From Clostridia bacterium (GTDB lineage: Bacteria > Bacillota_A > Clostridia > Oscillospirales > CAG-272), in contig JAGBRZ010000030.1 in NCBI GenBank assembly GCA_017632155.1, positions 1 through 31,037 on the forward strand: 31,037 bases of DNA, written 5' to 3'. The position numbers and the translations under genes were made by a program. The notes under the pieces were generated by a model. The model did not search any database. It was not told where the DNA came from and worked only from the letters and a program-made list of their open reading frames with translations. This document shows positions 5,295 through 30,713 of the stretch, in pieces. Position 1 is the stretch's first letter, and every line of letters begins with the position of its first letter.

Positions 5295-6068
5295 ATGAAG
5301 ATTGGCGTTTGTGCTAACTATGACCGCTGGGGCATTATTGCCGCGGCGGGGTATGATTACGTTGAGGGGAATTTTTCAAAGATCGCGAGAGCGACAGAGG
5401 AAGAATTTGAGGAAATGAAGGAGGCACTTGCGGCTTCCGGTATAAAAATGGAAGCGACCAACGGTTTCTTCCCGGGTGATTTTCAGCTTTATTCGAAGGA
5501 TAATTTCGAGGAAATAAAGAAAAACGTCCGCGAATATTGCGAGCGTGGCTTTGCGCGCGGCGCATCCCTCGGGCAGAAGGTTGCCGTCATCGGTTCTTCG
5601 GGGGCGAGAAATATTCGTGAAGGCTATACGCGCGAGGAGGCGGAGGAGCAGTTCTGCGAGGTTCTTCGAATCTGCGGCGAGGTCGGCGCAAAGTACGGTG
5701 TTGCCGTTACCGTTGAGCCGCTGAATACCAAGGAAACGAATTTCATTATCACATTTGCGGACGGAATGGACATCGCTAAAAAGGTGAACCACCCGAACGT
5801 GCTTGCGATGATCGACCTCTATCACCACGCGCAGAACGGCGAGCCGCTTTCGACGCTTGACGGCACCGAGGGCGTTCTTGTTCACGCGCATCTTGCACGT
5901 GCCGACAGACTGACACCCACGCCCGATGACGCGGCGGAGATCGACCCGAAGATCGAGTATCTGAAAAAGGTCGGCTATGACGGACGCATCAGCCTTGAAT
6001 CCAAGCATCATCCCGATTTCGAGACTGCGATCAAGAACGCATATCCGCTTCTTTCGAAATACAGGTAA
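5295..6068 (+). CDS. Sugar phosphate isomerase/epimerase-like TIM barrel protein
   Basis: The 257-residue protein belongs to the xylose isomerase-like TIM barrel superfamily (AP endonuclease family 2 fold). Probable metal ligands are E141 in TVEPLN, D174 and H177 in MIDLYHH, H199 in VHAHLA and E235 in ISLESK, each at the end of a strand as the fold requires. Relatives interconvert keto-sugars or inositol derivatives; the exact substrate cannot be read from the sequence. No signal peptide is present, so it acts in the cytoplasm. GAGGTGA precedes ATG 5295. It is first in an operon with a fucosidase and esterases, which suggests a role in handling released sugars. Confidence 0.85.
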   Translation: MKIGVCANYDRWGIIAAAGYDYVEGNFSKIARATEEEFEEMKEALAASGIKMEATNGFFPGDFQLYSKDNFEEIKKNVREYCERGFARGASLGQKVAVIGSSGARNIREGYTREEAEEQFCEVLRICGEVGAKYGVAVTVEPLNTKETNFIITFADGMDIAKKVNHPNVLAMIDLYHHAQNGEPLSTLDGTEGVLVHAHLARADRLTPTPDDAAEIDPKIEYLKKVGYDGRISLESKHHPDFETAIKNAYPLLSKYR

Positions 6069-6073
6069 TTAAT

Positions 6074-7285: not shown

Positions 7286-7286
7286 A

Positions 7287-8011
7287 ATGAATAAAAAATC
7301 ACCTACGAAACCATACGCAGCTTTGCATACGTTAATGACGCGATCTGCAAAAAGCCGATCAAGGGCATTGTTATCAATTTTTGCGGATTGAACAACAAGG
7401 ATATGTATGACGAGGACACCAACGAGGGTGTTTATTACGGCGAGGAGGGTGTGATCTATCTGCATCCCTACAACAATCCTTGGTCCTGGATGAACGCGCA
7501 GGCGATCGCTTATACCGATGAGATTGTTGACGTCCTTTTTGAAAAATACGATCTGCCCAAGGATACGCCCGTCGTGTCGATGGGACACAGCATGGGCGGT
7601 CTTGCTTCGCTTGTTTACACGAAATACTCAAAGCGCACACCTGTTGCGTGCATCTCGAATTGCCCCGTTTGCGATCTGGTTTACCACTTCACCGAGCGCC
7701 CCGATCTGCCGAGAACGATATACAGCGCGTTCTGGAACGAAGAGGGTGAGCTGAACGATATTCTGAAGCGCTATTCTCCCTTCCACCTTGCGCCCGAAAT
7801 GCCGAAGGTAAAGTATTACATCTTCCATTGCGACAAGGATAAGTCTGTAAATATCAACAACCATTCGATGAAATTCGTTGAGGCGATGAAGACGTGCGGA
7901 CAGGATATCGAGCTTGAGATCATCCCGAATCGCGGCCATTGCAAGCTGACCTACGCGGCTCAGGACAAGAAGCTTCGCCTTGCGCTTGACTATATCGGCG
8001 GTGCAAAATGA
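7287..8011 (+). CDS. Alpha/beta hydrolase with an N-terminal frameshift in a poly-A run
   Basis: A strong ribosome binding site (AGAGGAG) precedes ATG 7287, but that frame stops after 34 codons. The hydrolase reading begins in another frame immediately after the A6 run at 7293-7298 (ITYETIRSFAY and so on) and stays open to 8011. One extra A would join MNKK to ITYE and give an intact protein of about 241 residues. The hydrolase part has the nucleophile elbow GHSMGG, a candidate acid in CDKDKSVN and a histidine in NRGHCKL. Without slippage, a shorter form could start at TTG 7388 but would lose the first beta strands. This may be a sequencing error, slippage-dependent expression or an early pseudogene. 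It overlaps the next gene by 4 bases. Confidence 0.75.
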
Positions 8012-9012
8012 TCCCGAACGTTTGTGAGCTTGAAAAAGGCGAGATAGTCGATCTTCTTTTGCGTGAGGAATACGGATATCTGCCCGCCGCACCGATCTCG
8101 GTCAAGGCAGAGCTTGTTGAGCGCGATAAAAGATTCTGCGCCGGCAAGGCTGATCTTGAAATTTACAACCTTGTTTGCGAATGCGATTTTGGAAGCTTTT
8201 TCTTCCCCATTCGCGTTGTGATACCAAAGAAGAACAGACCGGTCCCCGCCTTTGTGCACATCAACTTCCGCCCCGACATTCCCGACAGAGCTCAGCCGAC
8301 CGAGGAGATCGTCGATGCGGGCTATGCGGTGCTATCCTTCTGCTACAAGGAAGTTACCTCCGATGACGGTGACTTTACCAGCGGTCTTGCGGGACTTGTT
8401 TATCCCGACGGTAAGAGGGATCCCGATTCCTGCGGTAAGCTCGGACTTTGGGCGTGGGCGGCAATGCGAGTGCTTGATTATGCTTTGACACTTGATTCGA
8501 TCGATCATTCAAAAGTAAGTGTAACGGGACATTCACGCCTCGGAAAGACCGCGCTGCTTGCGGGAATGCTCGACGAGCGTTTCTATTGTGCCATCTCGAA
8601 CGATTCGGGATGCTCGGGCGCGTCGATCGCAAGGGGCAATGACGGCGAGACTGTCAAAAATATCGTTGATCGCTTCCCCTATTGGTTCTGCGAGAACTAC
8701 TATAAATACTCGGATAACGAGGATGCGATGCCCTTTGATCAGCATTTCCTTGTTGCCGCGAACTACCCGCATCGCGTTTGCGTTGCAAGCGCCGAGGATG
8801 ATGCCTGGGCGTGCCCGAAAAATGAATTTCTTGCGTGCACACTTGCGAGCGATTTTTACAAAAAGCACGGCGGTAAAGGTTTTCCGGCAGATGCTATGCC
8901 CGAATGCGGCAAGCCGATCCTCGGCGGTGACATCGGTTACCACATCCGCAAGGGAACACATTACCAGAGCCGCGAGGACTGGAATTACTATATCAAATAT
9001 CTTGAAAGTTAA
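8008..9012 (+). CDS. CE15-like (glucuronoyl esterase-related) alpha/beta hydrolase
   Basis: The 334-residue protein has an alpha/beta hydrolase core with nucleophile elbow GHSRLGK, close to the G-x-S-R-x-G-K pattern of glucuronoyl esterases (CE15). The later segments RFPYWFCENYYKY, MPFDQHFL, ANYPHRVCVASAEDDAWA and a C-terminal GTHYQSREDW also match the layout of that group. Typical CE15 enzymes are secreted; this one has no signal peptide and probably acts inside the cell on imported sugar esters. It begins in an ATGA overlap with the preceding hydrolase gene, so the two are translationally coupled. Substrate specificity is uncertain. Confidence 0.75.
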   Translation: MIPNVCELEKGEIVDLLLREEYGYLPAAPISVKAELVERDKRFCAGKADLEIYNLVCECDFGSFFFPIRVVIPKKNRPVPAFVHINFRPDIPDRAQPTEEIVDAGYAVLSFCYKEVTSDDGDFTSGLAGLVYPDGKRDPDSCGKLGLWAWAAMRVLDYALTLDSIDHSKVSVTGHSRLGKTALLAGMLDERFYCAISNDSGCSGASIARGNDGETVKNIVDRFPYWFCENYYKYSDNEDAMPFDQHFLVAANYPHRVCVASAEDDAWACPKNEFLACTLASDFYKKHGGKGFPADAMPECGKPILGGDIGYHIRKGTHYQSREDWNYYIKYLES

Positions 9013-9024
9013 GGAGATAATAAA

Positions 9025-9825
9025 ATGAAATACGTATTTGACCACGATTTTCACATTCATTCGCAGATCTCATCCTGCTCGCGTGACCCCGGTCAGACCA
9101 ACGAGCGCATTCTGCAGTATGCACAGGAGGAAGGACTTCACACTATCGTTCTTGCCGACCATTTTTGGGACGAAACCGTAGAGGGCGCGTCAAAGTGGTA
9201 CTCAAAGCAGAATTTTGAGCATATCTCCCAGGCAAAGCCTCTGCCGCAGAGTGAGGGTGTCAAGTTCCTTTTCGGTTGCGAGACCGAGATGGATAAATAT
9301 ATGACCGTTGGTTGCTCGCGCGAGAGAATGGACGAGTTTTCCTTCATCGTCATTCCCACCACCCATTTCCATATGGAGGGCTTTACCCTCTTCCTTGAGC
9401 AGCTCGAATCCCCCGAGACCCGCGCAAAGGCTTGGGTTGAAAAGTTTGACGAGCTTTTAAAGCAGGATCTGCCTTTCCACAAGATCGGCATAGCGCACCT
9501 GACCTGCGGACTCATTTGGAAGGGTGACCGCCCGAAGTATCTTGAAACCATTGATTCCATTCCCGTCGAGGATATGCACCGTCTGTTTGCCAAGGCGGCA
9601 AAGCTCGGCGTTGGCATCGAGATCAACCCCGGCAATATGAAGTATGCCGAGGAAGAGAAGGATATCCTTCTCCGTCCCTTCCGTATTGCGAAAGAGGAAG
9701 GCTGTAAGTTCTACTGCGGAAGCGACGTTCACCACCCCGAAAACTTTGCGACCGTCCGCAAGTGGATCGAGCGCGGAATTGATGACCTCGGACTGACCGA
9801 GGAGGATAAGTTTATTCTTAAATAA
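9025..9825 (+). CDS. PHP-domain phosphoesterase
   Basis: The 266-residue protein carries the metal-binding motifs of the PHP superfamily: DFHIHS (H10, H12) near the N-terminus, ADHFWD (D45, H46), the GCETEM glutamate, and SDVHHPE near the C-terminus. Family members hydrolyse phosphate esters such as histidinol phosphate or sugar phosphates. Its operon position suggests a sugar-derived substrate rather than histidine synthesis, but this is inference. AAGGAGA precedes the start, 12 bases after the esterase gene. Confidence 0.85.
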   Translation: MKYVFDHDFHIHSQISSCSRDPGQTNERILQYAQEEGLHTIVLADHFWDETVEGASKWYSKQNFEHISQAKPLPQSEGVKFLFGCETEMDKYMTVGCSRERMDEFSFIVIPTTHFHMEGFTLFLEQLESPETRAKAWVEKFDELLKQDLPFHKIGIAHLTCGLIWKGDRPKYLETIDSIPVEDMHRLFAKAAKLGVGIEINPGNMKYAEEEKDILLRPFRIAKEEGCKFYCGSDVHHPENFATVRKWIERGIDDLGLTEEDKFILK

Positions 9826-9898
9826 TTTTTTGGTGTTTTGTGATCCCGTTGTTTTTATCATAATGAAGCCATATTTCGAAAGGAGGAAATATGACGGT

Positions 9899-11269
9899 AT
9901 GAGTAAAATAAGAGATAAAATTAAACCACTGCTTACAATAATCGTGCCTGTGGCACTTATTCTGCTTGCATCTGCAATGATAACCGGATGCGGAGAAGAT
10001 CCGATCCCCTTGGCAGAGAATACTGCCGAAAGTTCCGCGGCAATCGAAAATACAGAATCGCCCGCGATCTATGAAACAACCGCGACCGAGCCGCCTACCC
10101 CGCCTCCGTTTGACCCCAAAAACGTAGAAATTGTGGAGAATCCCACGGATTCCAGTATGTCGTCACCCTTAATTTATACAACTTGGGAAGGCTTGGACTT
10201 TTCAAATCTTCTCAGGTACGAGATCGACTATTACAAAAATCAACCCGACAAATATCTTGCGATCAACGTTTTTCGCAGAAACGGTGATTATTTCTACACA
10301 GACTATGTTTATGAGGGAATGACGTATAAGGAATTGGAAGATGCGATACTCACGGCATCGAATAAAGCAACTCTTATGCAGTATCTGATCAGCAGAGAAG
10401 GCGAGATACTCAAATATGGTAAGGAAGTTGTAACCGGAAAGGGTGTTCCGACGGATGATCTCTTGATCGATGATTTTGATAAAGGTGTTCGTTGGGCGGA
10501 AAGTCTGTATGATCAGACTGTTGCCAAATATAATGGAATGCTTTCGCGCTATATAGTTGACGGTGACTTCCTTTCCGAACTCGCGGAAAGTGATAGAGTT
10601 CTGTTCAAAGAGGAGTATAACGCACTCAAGGAAAAGATGTCCGAAATGAGGCAATACTATTTTCAAAGGCACGAGGCGGGCGATCTTGATTTGTTTGAAT
10701 CGTTGGGATTAAATGCAGACGAGATCAACGGCAAGCTTTGTATATTTGCAACTTTCGAACAGCTTCGGGGACTCGCGGGCAGAGCGGATATGTCTGCCTT
10801 CAGCTTCACGCCTCTCCCACGCAGCGATTATCTTGACGTTTATCCCGTGAGTGATCTTCAGGATGATTATAAGACCGATCGCACCATCGGCGGTTTTGCG
10901 CTTGATAAAATTGTCTTTGAAAACCTCCGTGTAGAAAACGAAAGAACGGTCAATGTTTATGTTTCGACCGACGAGGAATTCTATTGTGCGCTTGATGAAA
11001 CGATCCATAAGTATAAGCGCGGGGATCTGTATATTGAATTGCAATTTTATGCAAAAAGAGAAAACGGAACCAGGTATTGTATCGATATTTCCGAGCTCGA
11101 GGGGCTCAAGTACAGCGGATATTATGTTTCGAAGTATTCGTTCCTCACTGCCGTCAAGCTGCGATTTGAGGACTTCAACGATCCCGAAATAATGGCATGT
11201 CTTCGCGATCTCTCCTTGCGCGAGGAAATAACACGAATCGGTATTACACACCGAATGTATGTTGGATAA
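9899..11269 (+). CDS. Lipoprotein of unknown function
   Basis: The 456-residue protein has a lipoprotein signal peptide ending in MITGC (C31). A Thr/Pro/Glu-rich linker follows (about residues 40-75) and then a large acidic, mixed alpha/beta region with many Tyr and Asp residues. I recognise no catalytic motif or family. AGGAGG lies at 9881-9886. ATG 9899 opens the signal peptide at a 12-base spacing, while a closer ATG at 9891 is out of frame and reads only ATG ACG GTA TGA, overlapping the true start. An in-frame ATG at 9863 lies upstream of the ribosome binding site. A bidirectional terminator follows. Confidence 0.75.
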   Translation: MSKIRDKIKPLLTIIVPVALILLASAMITGCGEDPIPLAENTAESSAAIENTESPAIYETTATEPPTPPPFDPKNVEIVENPTDSSMSSPLIYTTWEGLDFSNLLRYEIDYYKNQPDKYLAINVFRRNGDYFYTDYVYEGMTYKELEDAILTASNKATLMQYLISREGEILKYGKEVVTGKGVPTDDLLIDDFDKGVRWAESLYDQTVAKYNGMLSRYIVDGDFLSELAESDRVLFKEEYNALKEKMSEMRQYYFQRHEAGDLDLFESLGLNADEINGKLCIFATFEQLRGLAGRADMSAFSFTPLPRSDYLDVYPVSDLQDDYKTDRTIGGFALDKIVFENLRVENERTVNVYVSTDEEFYCALDETIHKYKRGDLYIELQFYAKRENGTRYCIDISELEGLKYSGYYVSKYSFLTAVKLRFEDFNDPEIMACLRDLSLREEITRIGITHRMYVG

Positions 11270-11274
11270 ATATC

Positions 11275-11312
11275 AAAACCGGATCCGCGCTTCAGCGCGG
11301 ATCCGGTTTTTG
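11275..11312. terminator. Bidirectional rho-independent terminator
   Basis: A perfect 16-bp stem (11275-11290 with 11295-11310) and a TTCA loop has A-runs and T-runs on both sides. It lies between two convergent genes and can serve both. Confidence 0.9.
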
Positions 11313-11319
11313 TTAAAAC

Positions 11320-11943
11320 TTATTTGGCATAATAGTACCTGTTGAGCACTTCAAATTTGTATTCTGTATACTTCGGTATAGAAGTGAGAAAACTCGCGAT
11401 CTCGTCGGAGAGGTCGTAGTCTTCATTATGGAGAGATGAGGTGATTGTTGTTGATTTTGTGCCAAAAACAGCGGTTACCTTTATCTTGGCGGGGGAATAA
11501 ACTCTTTGCCTGCCGTGATTGCGACGGTATACCAAACGGTATTCACCGGGTACGAATCTGATCTGCTTTATGCTTTCCCATGGCAGGATGTGCGTATCAA
11601 GGACAATTCCGTAAGATGTAAGGTGCCCAAAGCGGGTTAAATTACGTTCCTCAAAATTCTTGTATTCCAAAATCAGTTTGTTATGTTCTTCATCTGTCAT
11701 AGCGGAGAGAAGACGGGATTGAAGAAGCGCTTGCTTGGAAACATAATATGCTATCAGAATAGGGATGCCGACGGTGAACGGTATCATAAAAATACCGAAC
11801 CAAACCGAAACTGCAAAAAATATGAGCGAGAAGAGAAGCATAAGAGGAAAAGACAGCAGCCCGCCTATAAATGCGAATTTGAAGTCGGTGGTTATTTTCT
11901 TACCAAACGGCGAGTATTTTATTCTTTCAAAATTGATTTTCAT
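11320..11943 (-). CDS. Membrane protein with two N-terminal transmembrane helices
   Basis: The 207-residue protein has a short cytoplasmic start, two adjacent hydrophobic helices (about residues 22-46 and 48-68) forming a hairpin, and a soluble C-terminal region. That region includes a strand-rich segment (HILPWESIKQIRFVPGEYRLVYRR and after) reminiscent of YcxB-like or bacterial PH domains. The resemblance is weak, so function is unknown. ATG 11943 was chosen because AGGAGA precedes it on the minus strand. It has its own promoter, divergent from the sulfatase gene. Confidence 0.75.
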   Translation of the reverse strand: MKINFERIKYSPFGKKITTDFKFAFIGGLLSFPLMLLFSLIFFAVSVWFGIFMIPFTVGIPILIAYYVSKQALLQSRLLSAMTDEEHNKLILEYKNFEERNLTRFGHLTSYGIVLDTHILPWESIKQIRFVPGEYRLVYRRNHGRQRVYSPAKIKVTAVFGTKSTTITSSLHNEDYDLSDEIASFLTSIPKYTEYKFEVLNRYYYAK

Positions 11944-11969
11944 TTTAATTCTCCTAAACAAGTAATTTC

Positions 11970-11998
11970 ATTATAGCATAAAATGAATTAAATGTCGA
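11970..11998 (-). promoter_or_regulatory. Sigma-A promoter of the two-helix membrane protein gene
   Basis: On the minus strand TCGACA (11998-11993) and TATAAT (11975-11970) are 17 bp apart, 27 bases upstream of the start. Confidence 0.75.
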
Positions 11999-12025
11999 TA
12001 GGTTATGGAAAATTTAGACTAAACA

Positions 12026-12054
12026 TTGAAAACTTATCTCAAATATGATATAAT
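12026..12054 (+). promoter_or_regulatory. Sigma-A promoter of the sulfatase gene
   Basis: TTGAAA (12026-12031) and TATAAT (12049-12054) are 17 bp apart, 34 bases before the start codon at 12089. Confidence 0.8.
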
Positions 12055-12088
12055 TAAACCGATAAAGAAACGACTATGGAGGTTACTC

Positions 12089-13648
12089 ATGGCAAACAAG
12101 AAGCAAATGGTATTCATAATGACCGACACACAGCGTTGGGATATGGTGAACTGCTACCGTGAGACGGGGCTTTCAACGCCTTGTCTTGATGCGCTTGCGG
12201 CGGACGGCGTTCGCTTTGAACGTGCGTATACGACACAGCCCGTCTGCGGTCCGGCTCGTGCGGGACTCTTTACGGGTACTTATCCCTCGTGGAACGGCTC
12301 GTGGGCGAACGGTATGGCTCTCGGCGACAACGTCAAGACCATCGGTCAGCGACTTTCCGACAATGGAATCAAATGCGCGTATATCGGCAAGTGGCATCTC
12401 GACGGCACCGATTATTTCGGCAACGGCTTCTGTCCCGAAGGCTGGGAAGAGGAGTATTGGTATGATATGCGCCGCTACCTCGAGGAGCTCACCGAGGATG
12501 AGCGAGTTAAGTCGCGCTGCAGAAAGACGATGAATTTTGAGGATATTCCCGATGACTTTACATATGGCTCGCGCGTTCTCAAGCGCGCGCTCGACTTTAT
12601 GGAAAAGTACAAGGATGAGGATTACTTCCTCGTGGTTTCCTTCGACGAGCCGCACGGTCCTCACCTTTGCCCCGAGCCTTATGCGAGTATGTATAAGGAT
12701 TACGAATTCCCGAAAAACCCCGCGGTCTGGGATACTCTTGAGGGTAAGCCCGAGCATCAGAAGGTCTGGGCGGCGGCGCGCGGCAACGTGGAAAAGGATC
12801 GCGATGCTGTCAAGATCAAGCAGCCCTACTTTTTCGGATGCAATTCCTACGCCGATCACCTCATCGGCGAGGTCGTCAAATGCGTTCCAGACAGCGCGAT
12901 GATAATGTATACCTCCGATCACGGCGATCTTCTTCAGTCGCATTGCCTCTTTGCAAAGGGTCCTGCGCCATATGATGACGTTGCACGCATTCCCTTCATC
13001 GTCCGTCACCCCGAGGGCGAGCGCGGCACGGTCTATTCAAAACGTCCCGTTTCACACATCAGCGTATGTCCCACCGTTATGGATTTCTTCGGTCTGCCCA
13101 TCCCGAAGGTTCTTCAGGGCGAGAGCATCCTCGATGCCTGCTGCGACACGAATGCCGATGCACCCGAGCTTGTATTCTACGAGTTCACCCGCTTCGAGCA
13201 GGACCACGATCACTACGGTGGATTCCAGCCGATGCGTGCAGTAACCGATGGCAGATACAAGCTTGCGATCAATCTGCTTTCCGATGACGAGTTCTATGAT
13301 CTTGAAAAAGATCCTTACGAGCTCAACAACCTTATCAATTCCGAAGAGTACGCCGCAGAGCGCGACCGCCTGCACGATGCGATCCTTGACCGTATGTGCG
13401 AGCAGCGCGACCCCTTCCGCGGATATTACTGGGATAACCGCCCCTGGCGCAAGGATGCCGCCGCACCTCATTGGAGATACCGCGGATTCACCCGTCAGCG
13501 CGAGAATGAGGAATACGAACCCCGCCAGCTTGACTTTGTCAATGGCCTTGTAATGAATCATCCCCAGAGATTTAAGATCAGCAACGAAAACGTAAAGTTC
13601 AAATCGCTCGATCATCTTGTTGAGTGGCTGAAGCATTATGATGATTGA
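12089..13648 (+). CDS. Sulfatase, Cys-type, cytoplasmic
   Basis: The 519-residue enzyme belongs to the arylsulfatase family and hydrolyses sulfate esters. The metal site starts with FIMTDTQ (D13). The formylglycine signature is PVCGPARAGLFTG, with C53 as the residue to be converted. A later metal motif is MYTSDHGDLL (D277, H278), and the C-terminal LEKDPYELNNL is typical. The core CxPxR is kept but the usual Ser/Ala before Arg is Ala. In an anaerobe this Cys would need a radical-SAM maturase, which is not in the window. No signal peptide is present, so the substrate must be imported. ATG 12089 follows TGGAGG (12077-12082). A start further upstream at 12026 would overlap the promoter. Confidence 0.93.
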   Translation: MANKKQMVFIMTDTQRWDMVNCYRETGLSTPCLDALAADGVRFERAYTTQPVCGPARAGLFTGTYPSWNGSWANGMALGDNVKTIGQRLSDNGIKCAYIGKWHLDGTDYFGNGFCPEGWEEEYWYDMRRYLEELTEDERVKSRCRKTMNFEDIPDDFTYGSRVLKRALDFMEKYKDEDYFLVVSFDEPHGPHLCPEPYASMYKDYEFPKNPAVWDTLEGKPEHQKVWAAARGNVEKDRDAVKIKQPYFFGCNSYADHLIGEVVKCVPDSAMIMYTSDHGDLLQSHCLFAKGPAPYDDVARIPFIVRHPEGERGTVYSKRPVSHISVCPTVMDFFGLPIPKVLQGESILDACCDTNADAPELVFYEFTRFEQDHDHYGGFQPMRAVTDGRYKLAINLLSDDEFYDLEKDPYELNNLINSEEYAAERDRLHDAILDRMCEQRDPFRGYYWDNRPWRKDAAAPHWRYRGFTRQRENEEYEPRQLDFVNGLVMNHPQRFKISNENVKFKSLDHLVEWLKHYDD

Positions 13649-17649: not shown

Positions 17650-17678
17650 TTGACAAAAACCAAAAAGTAGTGTAAAAT
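17650..17678 (+). promoter_or_regulatory. Promoter of the cohesin-protein operon
   Basis: Consensus TTGACA (17650-17655) and TAAAAT (17673-17678) are 17 bp apart and are preceded by A/T-rich DNA. Confidence 0.75.
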
Positions 17679-17834
17679 ATGATACGTGATGTTATGCTAT
17701 GCCGAAGTGTATCAATTGACGCTTGATATGCGGGGGTGATGAGGCTTGTGTCGGCACGTAAGGAACGATACAACATCTTGTCGAAGCATGGCATGACGAA
17801 CTCCCAAAAACATTTTTTCGAAAGGAAAGAAAAC
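17679..17834 (+). other. Long 5' leader of the cohesin-protein mRNA
   Basis: About 150 bases separate the predicted transcription start from ATG 17835. The leader can form TATCAA/TTGATA (17710-17715, 17723-17728) enclosed by GCCGA/TCGGC (17701-17705, 17751-17755). I recognise no known riboswitch. An unused GTG at 17736 reads in frame into the gene but would bury the signal peptide. Confidence 0.4.
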
Positions 17835-20800
17835 ATGAAAAAGATTTTTGCGTTTGTGTTGGCATCTCTCATGGTTCTGTCGCTCGTACCTGCGTCTGCG
17901 TTTGCGGCAATTTCCGTTGATACTCCCTGCCCCACAATACACACCGTTGCAAACTGTGATGCTGTGATCATCGGATCTCAGGAAGCAGATTGCGCAAACC
18001 CCGGTTACACTCGTTTCCAGTGTACCAAGTGTGGCGAACAGTTCCTTGGCAACATCGTTGCTGCAGGCGGCCACAAGTGGGTTCTTGATGAAGATCACAA
18101 GAACACCAAGATTCCCGCATGTACAGAGGGCAAGGACGGCTTCGGTCACTATGACTGTTCCGTTTGTGGCGCTACTAAGGAAGAGGCAATTGCTCTTGCT
18201 AAGCTCCATGACCTCGTATTCGTTTCCGGCGTAGGCTGCGAGGCTGCTTACGTTTGTACTGTCTGCGAAGGCACCTTCAACTCCAAGGGTGGAGAAGTTG
18301 GCGAGCATGCAGGTTGGGAACTCAAAGAGGTTGTTACCGAACCCACCGCTAAGACCAATGGTCTTGCTATCTTTGTTTGTACCGCTAAGAATTGCGGCGC
18401 AACCAAGGAAGTAACCATCAACGCTCAGTGCGATTGCAAGAACGACTACAAGTCTCAGGCTGCATTCTACAATGCATACGCTGCAGGCAAGTTCGTTCTC
18501 AAGACAAAGCCTTCCAAGGTTACTTGTACCGCTGATGGTAAGTACGCTATCTACGCTTGCGTAGACTGTGGCGCTTTCATCAGATGGAAGACAAATGACT
18601 CCAAGAAGTCTACCGATCTTCCTGAGGCTGTTCTTAATGAGGATGGTCAGGTTACCGGTATCAAGAACGGTAAGTTTGAGTTCGTAGCAAAGAACGAGAA
18701 CTCCACCTCTTCTTACAAGATCACCAAGCTTGGTCACTCCTATGTAGCTGACAATGATAAGGATCATCCCAAGCAGGTTACTGATGCTTGCAACTACTCC
18801 AAGTATTGTAAGAACTGTAAGAAGTACATCGCTCAGGATGGACACGCTTGGTTCGAGATCAACTCCACCGCTGCTACCTGTGAGACCTACGGTATCACCT
18901 ACAAGGTATGTCAGGTTTGTGGTCAGAACAAGAACGAGGTTAAGGATCCCCTTGGCCACGATCTCGCTACCGAGGTTTACCCCTCCACTTGCGGTACCTA
19001 TGGTTACACCATTACCTACTGTAAGAATGACACTAAGTGTACTTACACCAAGCCCGCTTCCGGCGCTAACTACTATGACTTTGCTACCGGTAAGGTATAT
19101 GCAGACGTTACTGTAGACCACGATGCTAAGAGCAGCACCGCTAAGGTTGTTCGTCCTATCGTAAGCATCGTTCCTCTCACCGAGCTCAAGGGCTCTCACA
19201 CCTTCACTACTACTCAGATCATCGGCGGCCAGGCTAACTGCGCATCCGGTCTCGTAGTAATGCAGACATGTAAGGATTGTAACTACGTTACTTATACTCA
19301 GATCGCTCCCAAGGGTCACACCTTCGGCGAGACCACCACTATCGAGGCTACTTGCACTTCTTCCGGTTCTATCATGAAGACCTGTAAGGTATGTAACTAC
19401 CTTGATATCATCGTACTTCCCAAGCTCACCGCTCACAAGTACGTTCAGATCGACCTCCAGTACAACTGTGCTGGCGAGTTCTTCCAGGCTCCTGATGGCC
19501 GTTTCTATCACGGTATCAGCACCATGGCTTGTGCATTCGGTTGTGCAGGCACTGAGGTTAAGAACTACATCGATCCCGTTGGCGCTTCCTCTGCTAAGAT
19601 TTGGTTCGAAAGCTTCGAGGATGCTACCAAGTATCACGGTGCAACCCTCACTCTCGTAGCAGGCAGCTACCGTGCTCCTAGCTGCACTTCCGCTGGTTAC
19701 GGCATCTACGTATGCGGTACTTGCGGTCAGAGCGTATATGTTACCACTCCTGCAGTTGGTCATATGCCCACTCTTACTCCCGAAGGAAAGCCCATCGAGA
19801 TCCCCGGCAAGGCTGCTACATGTACCGAGTCCGGCCTCAAGGCTTACAGCCTCTGCGCTACCTGCAATGGCTCCATCATTCTCAATGAGAAGGGCGAGTA
19901 TGTTTCTGTCACTACTGCACAGCTCGTTACCAATCCTCACTCCGCAACTCTCGTTCCCGTTGTCGTAACTTCTTGCGACGGCGTTAACTCCGTTACCTAC
20001 TACAAGTGTTCCGTTGACGGCTGTGGCAAGATCTTTGCTGACGCTGAGGCTAAGACCCCCGTTGCTAAGCTTCCCGCTGACAAGGCACACACTTGGAAGG
20101 TTCTCTACTCCGGCGTAGTTCTTAACTGTAACAACGACGGTTATCCCGAGATCAGATACTGCGCAACTTGTAAGACTCTTGAGAAGACTCAGTACGCTGA
20201 GTTCCTCAAGGATGGCGAAGTTGTTGTTGACGTTTACTCCTTCGAGTCCTGGAACGTTGAGGAGTATGCAATTCCCACCGTTATCAGCTATGTAAATGGC
20301 GCTTACAACAAGGCTGCTGACAAGGTTGCTAAGTACTCTCACGGCGAAGCTAAGAACTGTCCCGCTGAGTGGGCAGGTCTCATCATGAACCACGAGGCAT
20401 ATTCTAACGCTGCTGACTGCGACGAAGAGTATGGTTATGTTGGTCACCTCTGCCTCATCTGTGGCTACGAGTACATCACTGACTTCGTAACTGCTGCTGG
20501 CGGACACTACAACATCTACGGCGAGAAGCTCGAAGAGAGCTGCGCTAACTATGTTGCAGTTAAGGATAGAACTTGTATCAACTGTAACAAGACCATTGGT
20601 GTTGCTGCAGAGCTCCACAATGTTGTTAAGGGCGAGACCATCGCTCCCACCTGCTCCACCGAGGGCTACACCTATTCTTACTGTAAGAATGACGGTTGTA
20701 CTTGGGTACAGGTTTCCGACGCTAAGCCTGCTGTAAAGCCTGCTGATTACCACAAGAACACCAAGAACCTTAAGGTTGGCGGCGTTGAGGCTGACTATGC

Positions 20801-21734
20801 TACCGTTGGTAATTCCTACACCTACTGTCCTGTTTGCCTTGAGGTTATCAAGGTTCAGAAGGAAACCAAGCTCGATGAGGCTGGTCTTGAGATTCAGCTC
20901 TCTACCGACACTGATTCCTACATCCCCGGCTCCAAGGTATACGTAACTGTAACCCTCAACTCCCTCAAGGGTGTTGATGTTTGGGGTGTAAACTTCCCGA
21001 TCACCTATGATCCTGCTGTATTCAAGTATGTTGGTTACACCTTCAATACTGCTGCAGGCGCATTCCAGACCTTCACTGTTAACGCAGTTCAGTCTTACAA
21101 GACCTTCGACTATTACGGATCTCTCTTCACTAAGGGTGACTTTACTGATGCAGGTGTAGTAGTTGTTGCTGCAAGCGCAGACGATGAGATCGCTATCAAG
21201 GGCGCTCAGACTCTCGCAACCTTCGAGTTCGAAGTAATCAACTACTCCGGAACCGAGACCGAGGCTACCTTCGCTGTTGAATCCAAGAGCGTTCTCACCG
21301 GTGTTGAACTCGGTGCTGAGTACGTATCTGCAGTTGGCGGATACCTCGTTGACGAATCCAAGGCTACCGTTAAGACCTACGCTGCTGACGTAGTTGACGG
21401 TATGGGTAAGACTGTTCCTACCAACGCTATCGACTCTCTCGGTAACAAGGCTAACTACGCAACCGTTAACGTTGCTGGCTTCCTTGATCTCGATGGTAAG
21501 AACGGTATCACCATGGCTGATGCTCACCTCCTCTACGCTCTCATTTACAACAATGAGTATGACGTACTTGCAGATGCTGACTTCGACGGCAAGATCACCG
21601 CTTATGACCTTAACGTTCTCTACAGCATCCTTGTTGGTCAGATCACTGTTGAGGATTACCTCAATCCTCCCCAGACTGTTGTAGAAGCAGCAGAGAATGG
21701 CCAGATTCCCCAGTCTTGGTGGAAGAACAACTAA
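17835..21734 (+). CDS. Secreted Cys/His-module protein with cohesin and dockerin domains
   Basis: The 1299-residue protein has a Sec signal peptide ending in SAFA. About 1000 residues of repeated modules follow, each with a TC, a CxxC about ten residues later and a GH (for example ATCTSSGSIMKTCKVC). Residues about 1013-1200 form a cohesin-like beta domain (LSTDTDSYIPGSKVYVTVTL, then WGVNFPITYDPAVFKYVGY). Residues about 1212-1275 form a dockerin-like pair of calcium loops. The second loop (DADFDGKITAYD) is canonical. The first (DLDGKNGITMAD) has Lys-Asn where Asn-Gly is expected. There is no membrane anchor. Codon use is extremely biased, suggesting very high expression. The next gene starts 43 bases later and encodes an anchored cohesin protein. 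ATG 17835 follows GGAAAG and opens the signal peptide. Confidence 0.88.
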   Translation: MKKIFAFVLASLMVLSLVPASAFAAISVDTPCPTIHTVANCDAVIIGSQEADCANPGYTRFQCTKCGEQFLGNIVAAGGHKWVLDEDHKNTKIPACTEGKDGFGHYDCSVCGATKEEAIALAKLHDLVFVSGVGCEAAYVCTVCEGTFNSKGGEVGEHAGWELKEVVTEPTAKTNGLAIFVCTAKNCGATKEVTINAQCDCKNDYKSQAAFYNAYAAGKFVLKTKPSKVTCTADGKYAIYACVDCGAFIRWKTNDSKKSTDLPEAVLNEDGQVTGIKNGKFEFVAKNENSTSSYKITKLGHSYVADNDKDHPKQVTDACNYSKYCKNCKKYIAQDGHAWFEINSTAATCETYGITYKVCQVCGQNKNEVKDPLGHDLATEVYPSTCGTYGYTITYCKNDTKCTYTKPASGANYYDFATGKVYADVTVDHDAKSSTAKVVRPIVSIVPLTELKGSHTFTTTQIIGGQANCASGLVVMQTCKDCNYVTYTQIAPKGHTFGETTTIEATCTSSGSIMKTCKVCNYLDIIVLPKLTAHKYVQIDLQYNCAGEFFQAPDGRFYHGISTMACAFGCAGTEVKNYIDPVGASSAKIWFESFEDATKYHGATLTLVAGSYRAPSCTSAGYGIYVCGTCGQSVYVTTPAVGHMPTLTPEGKPIEIPGKAATCTESGLKAYSLCATCNGSIILNEKGEYVSVTTAQLVTNPHSATLVPVVVTSCDGVNSVTYYKCSVDGCGKIFADAEAKTPVAKLPADKAHTWKVLYSGVVLNCNNDGYPEIRYCATCKTLEKTQYAEFLKDGEVVVDVYSFESWNVEEYAIPTVISYVNGAYNKAADKVAKYSHGEAKNCPAEWAGLIMNHEAYSNAADCDEEYGYVGHLCLICGYEYITDFVTAAGGHYNIYGEKLEESCANYVAVKDRTCINCNKTIGVAAELHNVVKGETIAPTCSTEGYTYSYCKNDGCTWVQVSDAKPAVKPADYHKNTKNLKVGGVEADYATVGNSYTYCPVCLEVIKVQKETKLDEAGLEIQLSTDTDSYIPGSKVYVTVTLNSLKGVDVWGVNFPITYDPAVFKYVGYTFNTAAGAFQTFTVNAVQSYKTFDYYGSLFTKGDFTDAGVVVVAASADDEIAIKGAQTLATFEFEVINYSGTETEATFAVESKSVLTGVELGAEYVSAVGGYLVDESKATVKTYAADVVDGMGKTVPTNAIDSLGNKANYATVNVAGFLDLDGKNGITMADAHLLYALIYNNEYDVLADADFDGKITAYDLNVLYSILVGQITVEDYLNPPQTVVEAAENGQIPQSWWKNN

Positions 21735-21777
21735 TTGTTGATCCATAATATAACAACTTTAGAATAGGAGAACTCAA

Positions 21778-23910
21778 GTGAAAAGAATACTTTGTATCCT
21801 CTTCGCTCTGTGTTCTGTCATAACTCTATCGTTGTCAGTATCAGCTGAATCAACCAATAAACTGACTTATGCAGTGGAAGCTTCGGCTTCCACTGTATCT
21901 GCAAATACCGAATTTACATTATTAGTAAAGGTTGCCGAGAATACCGGTATTTGCTGGGCGAAGGCCGTAGTCTCCTATGATTCTTCGGTACTCACATACA
22001 TAGATTATTCGACAGACCAAAGCGTATTTAAATCTACAATTACCGCAAATAACCCCAAAGACGGAGAAGTAGTTGTTACCCTTGGTGGTATTTCCGTACT
22101 CTTCGCACCCAATCCTACTGTGTTTACAGATAAGGGCGTTTTTGTTGCTCTTACATTCAGAGTAAATGAAAATGCTAAAGCGGGCGATACCGTTGTGTCT
22201 GTAAAAACCTCTGAAAATGACGTCGTAAAGATCGTTAATTCAGTTCCTAATTACGATTATAAGATCACAAATGCTTCCACAACCGTCAAAGTTAACGCCG
22301 GTAGCCACAAGTGCACTCCTGCAGCAGCAGTAAAGGAAAATGAAGTTCCTGCTACTTGCTTGGCAGAAGGACATTATGATATGGTTGTTTACTGCACTTC
22401 TTGTGGAGGAGTCATTAGCCGTGAAACTAAAACCATTGCAAAGACTAGCCACGTTGCCGGAGCTGTGATTCGTGAAAATGTTAAGGAAGCTACTTGCCTT
22501 GCAACCGGTTCTTACGATGAAGTGACTAAGTGTACTTATTGCCAGACCGAAATGTCACGCAAGAAGGTCGATCTTCCTAAGACCGATCACAAGCCCGGAG
22601 AATCAAAGATTGAAAATCTCAAGGACGCTACTTGCACACAGCAGGGAAGCTATGATTTGATCACATATTGCTCGATTTGTAAGGCTCAGTTGTCTAAGAC
22701 AAATGAAATTATTGAATTCGGACCTCATACACCCGGTGCAACTAACGAAGAGAATCACATAGCCCCCACTTGCGCAAAGGCCGGTTCTTATGAGATCGTT
22801 ACATACTGTAAAGTATGTAGCAAGGAAGCAAGCAGAGAGAAGAAAGAAATTCCCGCACTTGAACATGTAAAGGGCAATTCTGTAAAGGAAAATCAGAAAG
22901 CCGCTACTTGTGCAAAGGAAGGTTCTTATGACGAGGTTGTATACTGCACTGTTTGTAAGGGCGAGGTGGCAAGAGTCACTGTAAAGATCGCCAAGACAGA
23001 GCATACACCCGGTAATGCTAAAGAAGAAAATAGAAAAGCTCCCGTAAACTGCGGAGCTGATGGAACATATGATTCTGTTGTATATTGCTCTGTTTGTAAA
23101 ATAGAGCTTAGCAGAATTACACAAAGCATTCCTGCACCCGCGCATAAGCCCGGCCCTGCAGCAACTGCAACCACTCCTCAAATTTGTACCGTTTGTAATA
23201 AGGTACTTGCTCCGAAGCTTGACCACGTTCATAGCTGGGCAAGTTCTTGGACAAAGGACGCAGTCGGCCATTGGCATACTTGCTCCGGATGCGATAATAA
23301 AAACAATTACGAAGAGCATCACTATACAAACGGTTGCGACGCAGATTGCAACATTTGTGGTGCATCTCGTGCTGTTGTAGGTCATCAGTACGATAATGAC
23401 TGCGATGATATTTGCAACAAATGTAATGAAAAGCGCACTATTGTTGGACATACATATGATAACAACTGTGATGGCACTTGTAATACATGTGGCACTCAGC
23501 GTCCTGTAACTCATACTTATGACAACAACTGTGATGCAACATGTAATATCTGTAATACTCCCCGAGTTGCTGCAGATCACGTATATGGAAGTTGGAATAC
23601 TGTTAAGGAAGCTACCGCTACTACTGACGGTCAGCGCGAGCGTACCTGCAACATTTGCGGTAATAAGCAGACTGAGGTAATTCCCGCCACCGGATCTACT
23701 GCTGATACTACAGTAACAACCACCGAGCCTACTCCCGGTACTTCGGGTAGCGAAGTTACCACAGAGAAGACTCCCGGCCCCGAGGCTACTGAGCCCAATC
23801 AGACCGAAGATCCCGGTGTTGAAGACCCCGGATGCGGATCTGTTGTATCCATGGGCATCGCTATTATCGCGATCCTCGGTACCGCACTTATTATGAAGAA
23901 GAGAGATTAA
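21778..23910 (+). CDS. Membrane-anchored cohesin-domain protein with Cys/His repeats
   Basis: The 710-residue protein starts at GTG 21778 behind GGAG, with a signal peptide ending near VSAE. Residues about 27-172 form a cohesin-like domain (LTYAVEASASTVSANTEFTL, AKAVVSYDSSVLTYIDY). Six full Cys modules of about 46 residues follow (residues about 176-480), then four short modules of about 22 residues with HxYDNNCDxxCNxC (about 515-600). A Thr/Pro/Glu linker leads to a C-terminal helix GIAIIAILGTAL preceded by GCG and followed by KKRD, a surface anchor. It is probably in an operon with the preceding cohesin/dockerin gene and could hold that protein at the cell surface. Binding between them is inference. 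Confidence 0.88.
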   Translation: MKRILCILFALCSVITLSLSVSAESTNKLTYAVEASASTVSANTEFTLLVKVAENTGICWAKAVVSYDSSVLTYIDYSTDQSVFKSTITANNPKDGEVVVTLGGISVLFAPNPTVFTDKGVFVALTFRVNENAKAGDTVVSVKTSENDVVKIVNSVPNYDYKITNASTTVKVNAGSHKCTPAAAVKENEVPATCLAEGHYDMVVYCTSCGGVISRETKTIAKTSHVAGAVIRENVKEATCLATGSYDEVTKCTYCQTEMSRKKVDLPKTDHKPGESKIENLKDATCTQQGSYDLITYCSICKAQLSKTNEIIEFGPHTPGATNEENHIAPTCAKAGSYEIVTYCKVCSKEASREKKEIPALEHVKGNSVKENQKAATCAKEGSYDEVVYCTVCKGEVARVTVKIAKTEHTPGNAKEENRKAPVNCGADGTYDSVVYCSVCKIELSRITQSIPAPAHKPGPAATATTPQICTVCNKVLAPKLDHVHSWASSWTKDAVGHWHTCSGCDNKNNYEEHHYTNGCDADCNICGASRAVVGHQYDNDCDDICNKCNEKRTIVGHTYDNNCDGTCNTCGTQRPVTHTYDNNCDATCNICNTPRVAADHVYGSWNTVKEATATTDGQRERTCNICGNKQTEVIPATGSTADTTVTTTEPTPGTSGSEVTTEKTPGPEATEPNQTEDPGVEDPGCGSVVSMGIAIIAILGTALIMKKRD
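22303..23220 (+). repeat. Six tandem Cys-module repeats within the coding sequence
   Basis: Six degenerate repeats of about 44-47 codons plus a partial seventh. Each has the pattern H-x-P/A-G, E-N, A-T-C, G-x-Y, Y-C-x-x-C and ends with I/L-P/A-K/A before the next His. The DNA has diverged, so these are old protein-level repeats. Confidence 0.8.
23320..23577 (+). repeat. Four short HxYDNNCD-type repeats within the coding sequence
   Basis: Four tandem units of 21-22 codons with the pattern H-x-Y-x-N-x-C-D-x3-C-N-x-C and a nearby Arg. The acidic Asn/Asp-rich start and three Cys per unit suggest metal binding. Confidence 0.8.
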
Positions 23911-23929: not shown

Positions 23930-23966
23930 CCCTGCCGCCCAAACGGGGCGGCGGGGACCTTTTTTA
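23930..23966 (+). terminator. Rho-independent terminator of the cohesin-protein operon
   Basis: A G/C-rich 11-bp stem (23930-23940 with 23946-23956) is followed by a T run from 23960. Confidence 0.9.
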
Positions 23967-24041: not shown

Positions 24042-24899
24042 ATGAGAAGAGTTTATTTGACCAGAGAAAAGTGTATAGCGAGTTGTTTTTCCAAAATGCT
24101 TGTTTACGTTGAAGATCAAACACGCGGTGAAGTTGAACTTGACGGTATCCCTTGCCGACTTATCGGAAAGCTTACGAATGGCGAGACCATCGATTTTGCA
24201 ATCTCCGAAGATTCGCGCAATATCTTCGTTATCTGTGAAAATAATATGATGAAAAACTATTGCGGCGATAAGATCCTTCTTTCGGCGGGTGATACAGATG
24301 TCGAGCTTTCCGGCAGAAATATCTACAATTTTGCGCTTGGACATCCCTTCCGCTTTAACTCTGTAACTGATGGAGAGTCACTTGAAAGCCGTAAGCGTGA
24401 AAACAGAAAGGGCATTGCGCTGACCGTTGCGGCTGTAATCATCGGTCTTGTGTTTGGTTTCATTGTTTCAGCTGATAATCTGTTTTCAAAGCCGAAGAAC
24501 TTTATCAGCGATACTTTTGAGATCACTCTTACCACCAATTTCAACGATAAATATGAGGACGGAGTTTATTACTTTGGCTCGAAGGATTCCTCAGTTGCGG
24601 TTTATGAGTACGGTTATGCGGATCACGTGACGATCGAAGCTATGAATGCAGATGAATTCCTCGAGGTGCTCAAATCAAGCGGTCATTTTGCATCGGACGC
24701 GCATATTGTATCCGAGTCGGGTCTGTTCTTCGTTGAGGATCGCGCAGAGTCGAATTCCGGTGAGATCAGAAGCTATATGACTGTTTTTGTCAAGGGTGAG
24801 GAGAGCTTTTTCCTTTTTGAATTCGGTTGCGAGGTAGAGGAATATTCCAAACTGAGAGCTGACTTCATAGAATGGGCGTCTACAATTAAAATTAAATAA
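24042..24899 (+). CDS. Single-pass membrane protein of unknown function
   Basis: The 285-residue protein has a soluble N-terminal region of about 120 residues with several strands, a charged stretch SRKRENRKG, one transmembrane helix (about 124-143) and an outer C-terminal domain of about 140 residues. The positive stretch before the helix puts the N-terminus inside. No family motif was recognised. GGGAGGGAAGAG precedes ATG 24042. It lies 11 bases upstream of the dNTPase gene and is probably co-transcribed with it. Confidence 0.75.
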   Translation: MRRVYLTREKCIASCFSKMLVYVEDQTRGEVELDGIPCRLIGKLTNGETIDFAISEDSRNIFVICENNMMKNYCGDKILLSAGDTDVELSGRNIYNFALGHPFRFNSVTDGESLESRKRENRKGIALTVAAVIIGLVFGFIVSADNLFSKPKNFISDTFEITLTTNFNDKYEDGVYYFGSKDSSVAVYEYGYADHVTIEAMNADEFLEVLKSSGHFASDAHIVSESGLFFVEDRAESNSGEIRSYMTVFVKGEESFFLFEFGCEVEEYSKLRADFIEWASTIKIK

Positions 24900-28940: not shown

Positions 28941-30713
28941 ATGCGCAAAACACTTTCCATCATCCTTTGCGTTATGATGCTCCTCTCGGCTTGCAGCTTT
29001 GCTATTCCCGCTTCCGCTGCTCCCGAAGGAACCGCAATCAATACCGCAGACGAATTCCTGGCTATGGTTTCCACTCCTGCTGATGCTACTGAGCCCACCG
29101 CTAAGTACTATCTTGCATCAGACATCACCCTTCCCGCTTCCTATGCAGAGCCCTTCTGGGGTATTCTCGACGGTAACGGCAAGACCCTCACCGTAACCAA
29201 CCCCGTATTTGCTGACTTCTCCGGCTCGGTTTCCAACCTCACCATCAAGGGCGAGATCTACTACACCGATGCTGACGCAGCAGGCTTCGCAACCACCTCC
29301 TCCAGAGGTTACACCGCTACCAAGGTTACCAACAATGCAAACGTAACCGTTATGGGTAACGGTAAGCACATTGGTGGTTTCTCCGCAAGAATCGTTAACA
29401 ACAAGGAGCTCGGCATTCCCGCAGAGTGCTGGTTCATCGATTGTGTAAACAACGGTAACCTCTACATCGACTCCACCGCAGACGAGAAGATGAGAGCCGG
29501 CGGTTTCTCCGGTATTCTTGACCTTTCTCACTTTGCAAACTGTGTAAACAACGGTAACATTTACATGAAGGGTAACATCTGCATCGGCGCAGGCTTCGTA
29601 GGTCGTGTAGCTCTTACCGCAGCTATGAACGGCGCTGAAGCATTCAGCTGTGTAAACAATGGTAACGTTGTTGTTGAAGACACCTACACCTCCAAGGACG
29701 GTACTGTAGGTGCAGGTACTGCAGGCGCAGACGCAGGCGGATTCTTCGGCTACATCGGCGGATCCGGCAACGCAGGCTGGTACAAGCTCTGGGGTTGCAC
29801 CAACAACGGTGACATTACCGGTCCCTACAGAGTAGGCGGTATGGTAGGATACGTTTACGCATCCGGTTCTACCGCATTCGTTGACATTCAGTTCTGCATC
29901 AACGCAGGTAACCTTACATACGGTCGTATCGCAGGCGGCTCAAACGCAACTACTAACGACTACTGTGGTCCTTTCGTTGGTTACACCAACTCTCCCTTCA
30001 CCACCATCAAGTACTGTATTGATACCGGTACGATCACTCTCGTTGAGAATTCCATCAACGCTAACGACGGCAGATCCTTCTGCGGACTTTCCTCCGCTGA
30101 CGGTACTCAGTACGACATTAAGGGCGTTTACGTTCTTAACAAGGAACAGTACAAGTGGGTAACTTACTCCCATAACCCCAGCTACGTAGCTAACTGCCAC
30201 GAGATCAATACTGCAGAAGGCATCATCGTAACCACTCTCGAGGACATCAAGGCAGGTAAGGTTGCATACCTCATCAACGAGGCAGCTCTTGCTGACGATT
30301 ACGGCTATGCAATGTTCGATTCCGATGACTATGCATGGGCAGGCTTCAAGTCCGGTGATGCATACGCTTTCACTCAGAAGCTCGGCACCGATAACTATCC
30401 CGCAGGTAACACCGGTTCCGCTAACTGGGTAGTTCTCAACGGCGACAAGTACGAGAACGGCGAGAAGGGCGCAACAGCTACTACCGAAGCTCCCGAGACC
30501 CAGGCTCCCGAAACTCAGGCTCCCGAGACCCAGGCTCCCGAGACTCAGGCTCCCGCAGTAGAAGAGACTACCGCAACTGCAGCTCCCGAGCAGACTCAGG
30601 CTCCCACCACCGAGCCCGCTCCCGCTAAGAAGGGTTGCGGCGGTATGATCGCAGGCGGCGTTGCTATCATCGCTATCCTCGGCACCGCTCTCCTTATCAA
30701 GAAGGAAGACTAA
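28941..30713 (+). CDS. Secreted, membrane-anchored GLUG/beta-helix-like protein
   Basis: The 590-residue protein has a signal peptide ending in ASAA. A region of about 390 residues follows with repeated units such as CVNNGNLYI, CVNNGNIYM, CVNNGNVVV, CTNNGDITG and CINAGNLTY, interspersed with GGF or VGGMVGYV, the pattern of GLUG repeats in right-handed beta-helices. A Thr/Glu/Pro linker contains four exact APETQ units. The C-terminus has GCG, the helix GVAIIAILGTALLI and KKED, almost the same anchor as the 710-residue cohesin protein. Codon use is strongly biased, implying high expression. Its role is probably adhesion or surface display; no catalytic motif is seen. It is monocistronic and followed by a second copy. 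Confidence 0.88.
   Translation: MRKTLSIILCVMMLLSACSFAIPASAAPEGTAINTADEFLAMVSTPADATEPTAKYYLASDITLPASYAEPFWGILDGNGKTLTVTNPVFADFSGSVSNLTIKGEIYYTDADAAGFATTSSRGYTATKVTNNANVTVMGNGKHIGGFSARIVNNKELGIPAECWFIDCVNNGNLYIDSTADEKMRAGGFSGILDLSHFANCVNNGNIYMKGNICIGAGFVGRVALTAAMNGAEAFSCVNNGNVVVEDTYTSKDGTVGAGTAGADAGGFFGYIGGSGNAGWYKLWGCTNNGDITGPYRVGGMVGYVYASGSTAFVDIQFCINAGNLTYGRIAGGSNATTNDYCGPFVGYTNSPFTTIKYCIDTGTITLVENSINANDGRSFCGLSSADGTQYDIKGVYVLNKEQYKWVTYSHNPSYVANCHEINTAEGIIVTTLEDIKAGKVAYLINEAALADDYGYAMFDSDDYAWAGFKSGDAYAFTQKLGTDNYPAGNTGSANWVVLNGDKYENGEKGATATTEAPETQAPETQAPETQAPETQAPAVEETTATAAPEQTQAPTTEPAPAKKGCGGMIAGGVAIIAILGTALLIKKED
30489..30548 (+). repeat. Four 15-bp tandem repeats encoding APETQ
   Basis: Four in-frame 15-bp units encode Ala-Pro-Glu-Thr-Gln. 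They differ only at synonymous positions, so copy number could change by slippage while keeping the frame. Confidence 0.95.

Follow-up and report, generated by a model that had tools for sequence, protein, structure and literature searches.

Described Systems Closest to the A/B Locus

Cohesins and dockerins are known to occur outside cellulosomes, and non-cellulosomal modules of both kinds were reportedly described by Peer et al. in 2009; to our knowledge, most of these have no known function. Here we analyzed two adjacent genes, designated A and B, in a 31,037-nucleotide stretch of DNA from a Clostridia bacterium (contig JAGBRZ010000030.1; hereafter the window, with features on the forward strand unless noted). 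A is predicted to encode a secreted protein with a cohesin and a C-terminal dockerin, and B an anchored cohesin protein, an arrangement that a preliminary description of the same DNA had likened to the logic of a cellulosome. We consider it probable, if well short of certain, that the two genes form a co-transcribed, enzyme-free adaptor-plus-anchor pair in which the dockerin of A docks on the cohesin of B and tethers A to the cell surface.

As defined in one account of cellulosomes (PMC11557425), a monovalent adaptor combines one cohesin with one dockerin, and an anchoring scaffoldin may carry a C-terminal transmembrane helix. Judged by its predicted domains, A is such an adaptor, with one cohesin and one dockerin in a single protein, and B, with at least one cohesin and a C-terminal transmembrane helix, is an anchoring scaffoldin. 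The locus shares with cellulosomal adaptor and anchoring scaffoldins (PMC11557425) a single-cohesin protein with a dockerin and a cell-attached cohesin protein. To that extent the cellulosomal layout first proposed holds, but a cellulosome is not supported: at the locus we found neither a scaffoldin with several cohesins nor a glycoside hydrolase (GH) that bears a dockerin. In contrast with cellulosomal scaffoldins, A and B have one cohesin each, no carbohydrate-binding module, cellulase, or multi-cohesin primary scaffoldin was found at the A/B locus, and the bulk of both proteins consists of modules with three cysteines and one histidine (Cys3His); moreover, 9 of the 21 relatives counted have the pair and yielded no cohesin or dockerin beyond it. 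In the mucinolysome of Limousia (PMC12997984), the dockerins of cSca1 and cSca2 are predicted to bind the cohesin of the wall-anchored cSca5. The hosts of both systems are gut bacteria, and in both an anchored protein has an N-terminal cohesin and its secreted partner a C-terminal dockerin. Mucinolysome scaffoldins carry up to five cohesins and dock mucin-degrading GHs and peptidases (PMC12997984), whereas no enzyme was found at the A/B locus.

Within the titles and abstracts of the open-licence literature, we found no description of an enzyme-free two-gene cohesin-dockerin pair with Cys3His arrays. The pair recurs in uncultured gut Clostridia as a compact unit of two genes that together supply one dockerin and two cohesins, and in several genomes no further module of either type was detected. 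It makes the purpose of a cohesin and dockerin without an enzyme directly testable with two small proteins. It could also provide a new pair of orthogonal binding partners, and it draws attention to zinc-type Cys3His rods as surface building blocks of gut bacteria.

Cohesin, Dockerin, and Anchor Domains of A and B

Gene A (17835..21734) starts with the ATG at 17835 and encodes 1299 amino acids, and gene B (21778..23910) starts with the GTG at 21778 and encodes 710, as the preliminary description had it. A begins with a putative signal peptide of ~25 residues (17835..17909), a hydrophobic start that is largely invariant across 10 aligned A proteins, and continues with a Cys-rich body, a cohesin, and a dockerin. 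In B, an N-terminal cohesin (residues 26–175; 21853..22302) is followed by two arrays of Cys/His modules and a C-terminal membrane helix (23842..23904; helix prediction 689–709) with GCGS before it and KKRD after it. The most hydrophobic 18-mer of the C-terminus has a value of 1.1 in A and 2.5 in B, in line with the initial assignment of a membrane anchor to B and none to A. On the minus strand, a 1344-residue open frame (window 17712–21746) runs antisense to all of A, without evidence for a gene; long antisense frames, some exceeding A in length, are present in three relatives as well (G001, G003, and G132 in our numbering of genomes), so frame length alone would select the wrong strand.

Both cohesins scored above the curated cut-off of PF00963 (24.1 bits), with 30.7 bits for residues 1021–1142 of A (20895..21260; the modeled fold extends beyond this Pfam range) and 34.0 bits for residues 37–144 of B. 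AlphaFold2 models of both adopt the cohesin beta-sandwich when compared with solved cohesins. The nearest solved folds for both (11–22% identity) include non-cellulosomal cohesins of Clostridium perfringens GH33/GH84 proteins (2vo8, 2jh2, and 2w1n) and CohA2 of C. acetobutylicum (6kgc), which, unlike those of A and B, presumably belong to glycoside hydrolases or a cellulosome. This structural check bears on the cohesins and barely tests the dockerin and Cys modules. Taken with the profile evidence below, the domains are identified as real cohesins, as first claimed, and a divergent dockerin, and not as unrelated Ig-like folds. A phmmer search of solved structures with B, or with the C-terminus of A, gave no match at E 1, and an NCBIfam scan returned no relevant model.

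On profile and motif evidence, the C-terminal domain of A (residues 1214–1275; 21474..21659) is a real, divergent dockerin, because it passes Pfam in relatives, is recovered by clade-excluded and leave-out profiles, matches canonical dockerins in profile-profile comparison, and has a canonical EF-hand loop 2, though its loop 1 is degenerate. Of 21 relatives, 14 have an orthologous domain that scores above the Pfam cut-off (G001, G039, G058, G063, G078, G132, G570, G684, G654, G642, G687, G571, G150, and G020, the last only with its neighbors in frame). A profile that drew on 17 A-type genes, none of them from the clade of the window, recovered the window dockerin at 41.0 bits (E 1.1e-12) as the sole match among the 125 open reading frames (ORFs) of the window, with none among shuffled ORFs; with the G642 row put in register, the values were 40.3 bits and E 1.9e-12. 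Leave-out profiles detected the dockerin in all 22 A proteins, and profile-profile comparison with 16 canonical dockerins gave 96.8% and 98.1%, vs. 0.2% for a Cys-repeat control; the G642 dockerin slice lies one loop too far upstream and its A-cohesin slice is also shifted, which affects this comparison, the leave-out table, and the cohesin tree described below. EF-hand loop 2 (DADFDGKITAYD; 21573..21608) is canonical in the window; of the 22 A proteins, 19 have a loop 2 that agrees with the strict calcium-loop pattern, the exceptions being G642 (strict in loop 1 instead), G003 (a looser pattern), and G004 (one inserted residue). Both loops are strict in nine of the 21 relatives (G039, G063, G058, G132, G570, G524, G020, G571, and G150), and the AlphaFold2 model of the dockerin region has one helix after each loop (216–227 and 245–255). 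The dockerin named in the preliminary description is thus upheld by family profiles and orthologues, but not by the PF00404 cut-off in the window protein itself. A profile of the 16 canonical dockerins gave no match among the window ORFs at E 10, passing over the A dockerin too. No further dockerin was found among the 125 ORFs with two profiles of limited reach (one missed the A dockerin, and the B-cohesin profile missed the A cohesin), consistent with the earlier statement that the window holds no dockerin-bearing enzyme.

Recurrence of the Pair in Related Genomes

A and B adjoin, in a similar neighborhood, in all four named relatives, which are draft metagenome-assembled genomes of Clostridia from the hindgut of ruminants (yak, dairy cattle, and goat). 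When 395 genomes of the same family were searched with the cohesin-dockerin end of A, 48 matched at E 1e-8, 11 of them at ≥160 bits (the next dropping to 90) and 22 at ≥56 bits. All 22 were examined, and in 20 of them A is followed by B, a gene on the same strand no more than 65 nt away (once with a 4-nt overlap) that encodes a hydrophobic start and a cohesin. The search yielded 12 new loci, and in all 10 that were scanned the next gene began with a cohesin by Pfam (nine over the cut-off); because the query contained no B sequence, the next-gene cohesin was an independent prediction that came true. Leave-out profiles found a cohesin in 21 of the 22 B genes, that of the window included, with G150 as the exception. 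The most hydrophobic C-terminal 18-mer was ≤1.7 in every one of the 22 A proteins and ≥2.3 in all 18 B proteins with their end available.

Eleven of the 26 lower-scoring family genomes were also examined. In three (G134, G678, and G696) a gene for a Cys-rich dockerin protein precedes one for a cohesin protein, and no pair was present in the other eight (G011, G655, G703, G746, G048, G034, G095, and G116). In an order-wide sample, 124 of 394 genomes matched at E 1e-4, many through the dockerin part alone; five were examined, and the arrangement is pair-like in G196 and G500 and not in G257, G174, and G301, which brings the lower-scoring and order-wide genomes together to 5 pair-like loci in 16, with 11 that are not. 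In two of the pair-like loci (L140:2646–6071 in G678 and L152:4051–5892 in G500) the cohesin-bearing protein in second place is matched by the dockerin profile as well; in G678 it is followed by a third protein, anchored and Cys-rich. A candidate in G083 proved to be another cohesin protein.

In a tree of 54 cohesins, which has long branches and includes some Cys-repeat residues in the A-cohesin slices, all 22 A cohesins group on a single branch (97/93), separate from the 10 other cohesins sampled. The B cohesins are not one clade, and 9 of the 10 other cohesins fall among them.

The anchor of B varies in type by lineage. In G039 the B protein (L108:6070–7497) ends in SPKTGD, a helix, and a basic tail, which we take to resemble a sortase signal of Clostridioides difficile, and this end reaches 18.8 bits with the Pfam model Gram_pos_anchor, under the cut-off of 20. 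The B protein of G134 (L139:7236–8972) seems, as judged by eye, to have an SLH-like repeat at its C-terminus. In the window, the C-terminus of B (23812–23910) shares a motif with that (30615–30713) of the protein encoded at 28941–30713, consisting of GCG, a hydrophobic helix containing AILGTA, and KK(R/E)D. The motif was matched at 7–15 places per genome in G001–G004, at 8 in G150, and at one or none in seven other relatives. No NCBIfam model names it. It contains a conserved Cys and may serve as a C-terminal signal for anchoring or sorting that is specific to the lineage.

Cysteine- and Histidine-Rich Modules

The Cys/His repeats first noticed in both proteins are far from chance expectation, with 11 C-CxxC-H modules in A and 6 in B vs. 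means of 0.18 and 0.28, respectively, in 100 shuffles. In A, the modules share residues 32–1001 (17928..20837) with 17 C-x-C-x(2-5)-C units. In B, the six modules have the form C-x11-C-x2-C-x15-H (residues 194–456; 22357..23145) and are modeled as three-stranded beta units; the second array, of shorter Cys/His modules, follows at residues 502–601 (23281..23580), where model confidence is low. Many Cys and His columns of A are invariant across the 10 aligned A proteins, the window's included, and of the 24 Cys and His in the six modules of B, 16 are invariant and 4 more are conserved to at least 90% across 41 aligned B proteins (again with the window). Three Cys and one His are the ligand set of a zinc site, and the four in each module most probably coordinate structural zinc.

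Cys repeats like those of B are not peculiar to the pair: B was matched by 1395 of 7993 scored candidates, and the lower-ranked among the best 120 of these matches include leucine-rich repeat (LRR), InlB-repeat, and dockerin proteins of Clostridia and Lachnospiraceae. A search of the genus with B matched all 13 genomes; among the matches listed, cohesin and repeats together were covered only in G001–G004, and elsewhere the anchor or the Cys repeats.

Other Cohesins and Dockerins in the Relatives

Cohesins and dockerins were counted with Pfam (E 0.01) in 21 of the 22 genomes, all but G148. None was detected outside A and B in nine genomes (G002, G063, G078, G132, G570, G684, G743, G654, and G672), in two of which, G743 and G672, Pfam also misses A's own dockerin; nor was a dockerin-bearing enzyme detected in these nine. 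G571 and G524 likewise had no other detectable dockerin by the same scan.

Besides A, 20 dockerin-matching ORFs were found in G001, G003, and G004, some of them cut by the ends of contigs or regions; 19 were scanned, and 18 were confirmed at E 0.01. The partner domains in these 18 were subtilase (one protein), NAGPA (two), transglutaminase-like (two), LRR (three), and cohesin (five), or there was no known domain. Families of GHs, polysaccharide lyases, and carbohydrate esterases were absent from the 18 except for the two NAGPA phosphodiester glycosidases, and the scan of these three genomes thus contained no dockerin-bearing plant-cell-wall enzyme; a single carbohydrate-binding match, Cthe_2159, among the scanned proteins was sub-threshold. 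Multi-cohesin proteins among the scanned proteins of relatives were one with four cohesins (and a dockerin) in G003 and one with two in G001, both at other loci.

A second type of cohesin-dockerin locus occurs in G003 (L061:1907–6109), G004 (L062:8812–15122), and G001 (L054:3008–12860), where small cohesin-dockerin proteins stand beside anchored Cys-rich cohesin proteins (in G001 and G004) and dockerin proteins, some of them LRR or transglutaminase-like; that of G003 includes the four-cohesin protein. At L057:1143–7448 in G001, a dockerin-bearing S8 subtilase adjoins a two-cohesin protein that also has a dockerin.

Interpretation of the Pair

Apart from NAGPA, no glycoside hydrolase family was found on the 18 dockerin proteins of G001, G003, and G004, and in some genomes only the pair was detected; on these grounds the locus does not appear to be a cellulosome, and we regard it as an adaptor and anchor that work without enzymes. 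Recurrence of the pair, in some genomes with no other domains of the kind detected, suggests a system dedicated to surface attachment and not a machine for degrading fibre. Docking of the A dockerin on the B cohesin would be the simplest reading, since in several genomes it is the only dockerin found, a cohesin lies next door, the anchor is on that partner, and the two genes stand together in 20 of the 22 top relatives. We infer an operon, docking, calcium and zinc sites, and an orientation of the two proteins. The C-terminal helix of B would fix it in the membrane, with the N-terminal cohesin exposed at the end of a Cys3His rod; the dockerin of secreted A, with EF-hand loop 2 at least occupied by calcium, would plug into this cohesin, and the ~980-residue Cys-rich body of A would thereby be held on the cell surface. 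The cohesin of A would then be a second socket, either for another copy of A or, where species have them, for other dockerin proteins. As to biological role, a surface stalk, an adhesin, or a metal-holding coat would be our guess.

Several observations weigh against this reading. The window dockerin reaches just 11.8 bits with PF00404, whose cut-off is 22.9, and its EF-hand loop 1 (DLDGKNGITMAD; 21486..21521) is degenerate. Among the relatives, Pfam misses the A dockerin in G003, G004, G743, G672, and G524 and its score falls short of the cut-off in G002 and G513, which limits what the failure to detect other dockerins can mean. Additional weak matches to a dockerin occur in G132 (E 0.026) and G078 (E 0.63); together with the misses in G743 and G672, they leave the absence of other modules less than certain, and the relatives' genomes are drafts of unstated completeness. 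In 12 of the 21 genomes, G001, G003, and G004 included, there are further cohesins or dockerins that could compete. In G150 a small cohesin-dockerin gene stands between A and an anchored protein without a detectable cohesin, and in G148 such a small gene is all there is at the match. Lastly, a weaker promoter-like site (9 of 12 consensus positions) lies inside the A–B gap.

A and B could alternatively be the cell-surface end of a wider network of cohesins and dockerins, an ordinary cellulosome-like adaptor and anchor that recruit enzymes encoded elsewhere, such as peptidases, transglutaminase-like proteins, and phosphodiester glycosidases. The S8 subtilase, NAGPA, transglutaminase-like, and LRR dockerin proteins of G001, G003, and G004 and the four-cohesin protein of G003 speak for such a network, but the nine pair-only genomes, together with G571 and G524, argue against it, as does the separate branch of the A cohesins, an argument that is itself offset by the placement of most other cohesins among those of B; on balance we think this unlikely. 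Less likely still is that the cohesin and dockerin folds are mere structural modules of an adhesin, with no docking between A and B, as it would sit poorly with the strict EF-hand loop 2 in most A proteins and with a dockerin gene and next-gene cohesin kept together in nearly all of the top-scoring relatives. The Cys modules, for their part, might be disulfide-linked instead of metal-binding, which would make the pair a redox-stabilized stalk. Both proteins are exported, which would suit disulfides, and the metal sites are predicted ones. Each regular module, however, keeps three Cys beside one His, and with an odd number at least one Cys must stay unpaired inside the module; the host is also presumably a gut anaerobe. 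We assign this alternative a low probability.

A doubtful extension of the preferred adaptor-plus-anchor reading is that copies of A join head to tail, cohesin to dockerin, with B as the cap at the membrane, to give an enzyme-free, zinc-rich surface fibre. Such chaining is suggested by the nine genomes without another detected dockerin, where A's own dockerin would be the sole candidate ligand for the A cohesin, and the coherence of the A cohesins as one branch (97/93) bears on it; a non-dockerin ligand for the A cohesin is equally possible.

Transcription Signals and Neighboring Genes

Upstream of A, a promoter-like site, TTGACA-17-TAAAAT (17650..17678), agrees with 11 of 12 consensus positions, by consensus match alone; 16 such sites were found in the region vs. 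9.8 expected. The gap between A and B is 43 nt and contains AGGAG (21766..21770), a putative ribosome-binding site of B read by eye. An intrinsic-terminator-like hairpin of 11 pairs, 10 of them GC, lies directly 3' of B (23930..23956); no terminator-like site was found in the gap, weaker ones occur inside A and B, and seven were found in all vs. 5.3 expected. As promoter- and terminator-like sites are this common by chance, a single transcript for A and B is only a fair guess.

The genes upstream, at 5295–13648, encode an alpha-L-fucosidase, a glucuronyl-esterase-like protein, an SGSH-like sulfatase, and a TIM-barrel isomerase-like protein, with no dockerin detected on any of them, and are perhaps a glycan-use cluster. 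A scan of viral contigs with a neighboring gene gave no match. After B, at 24042–24899, a gene encodes a 285-residue protein with one membrane helix as judged by eye and no Pfam family over the cut-off, and genes of similar size follow B in G003 and G004.

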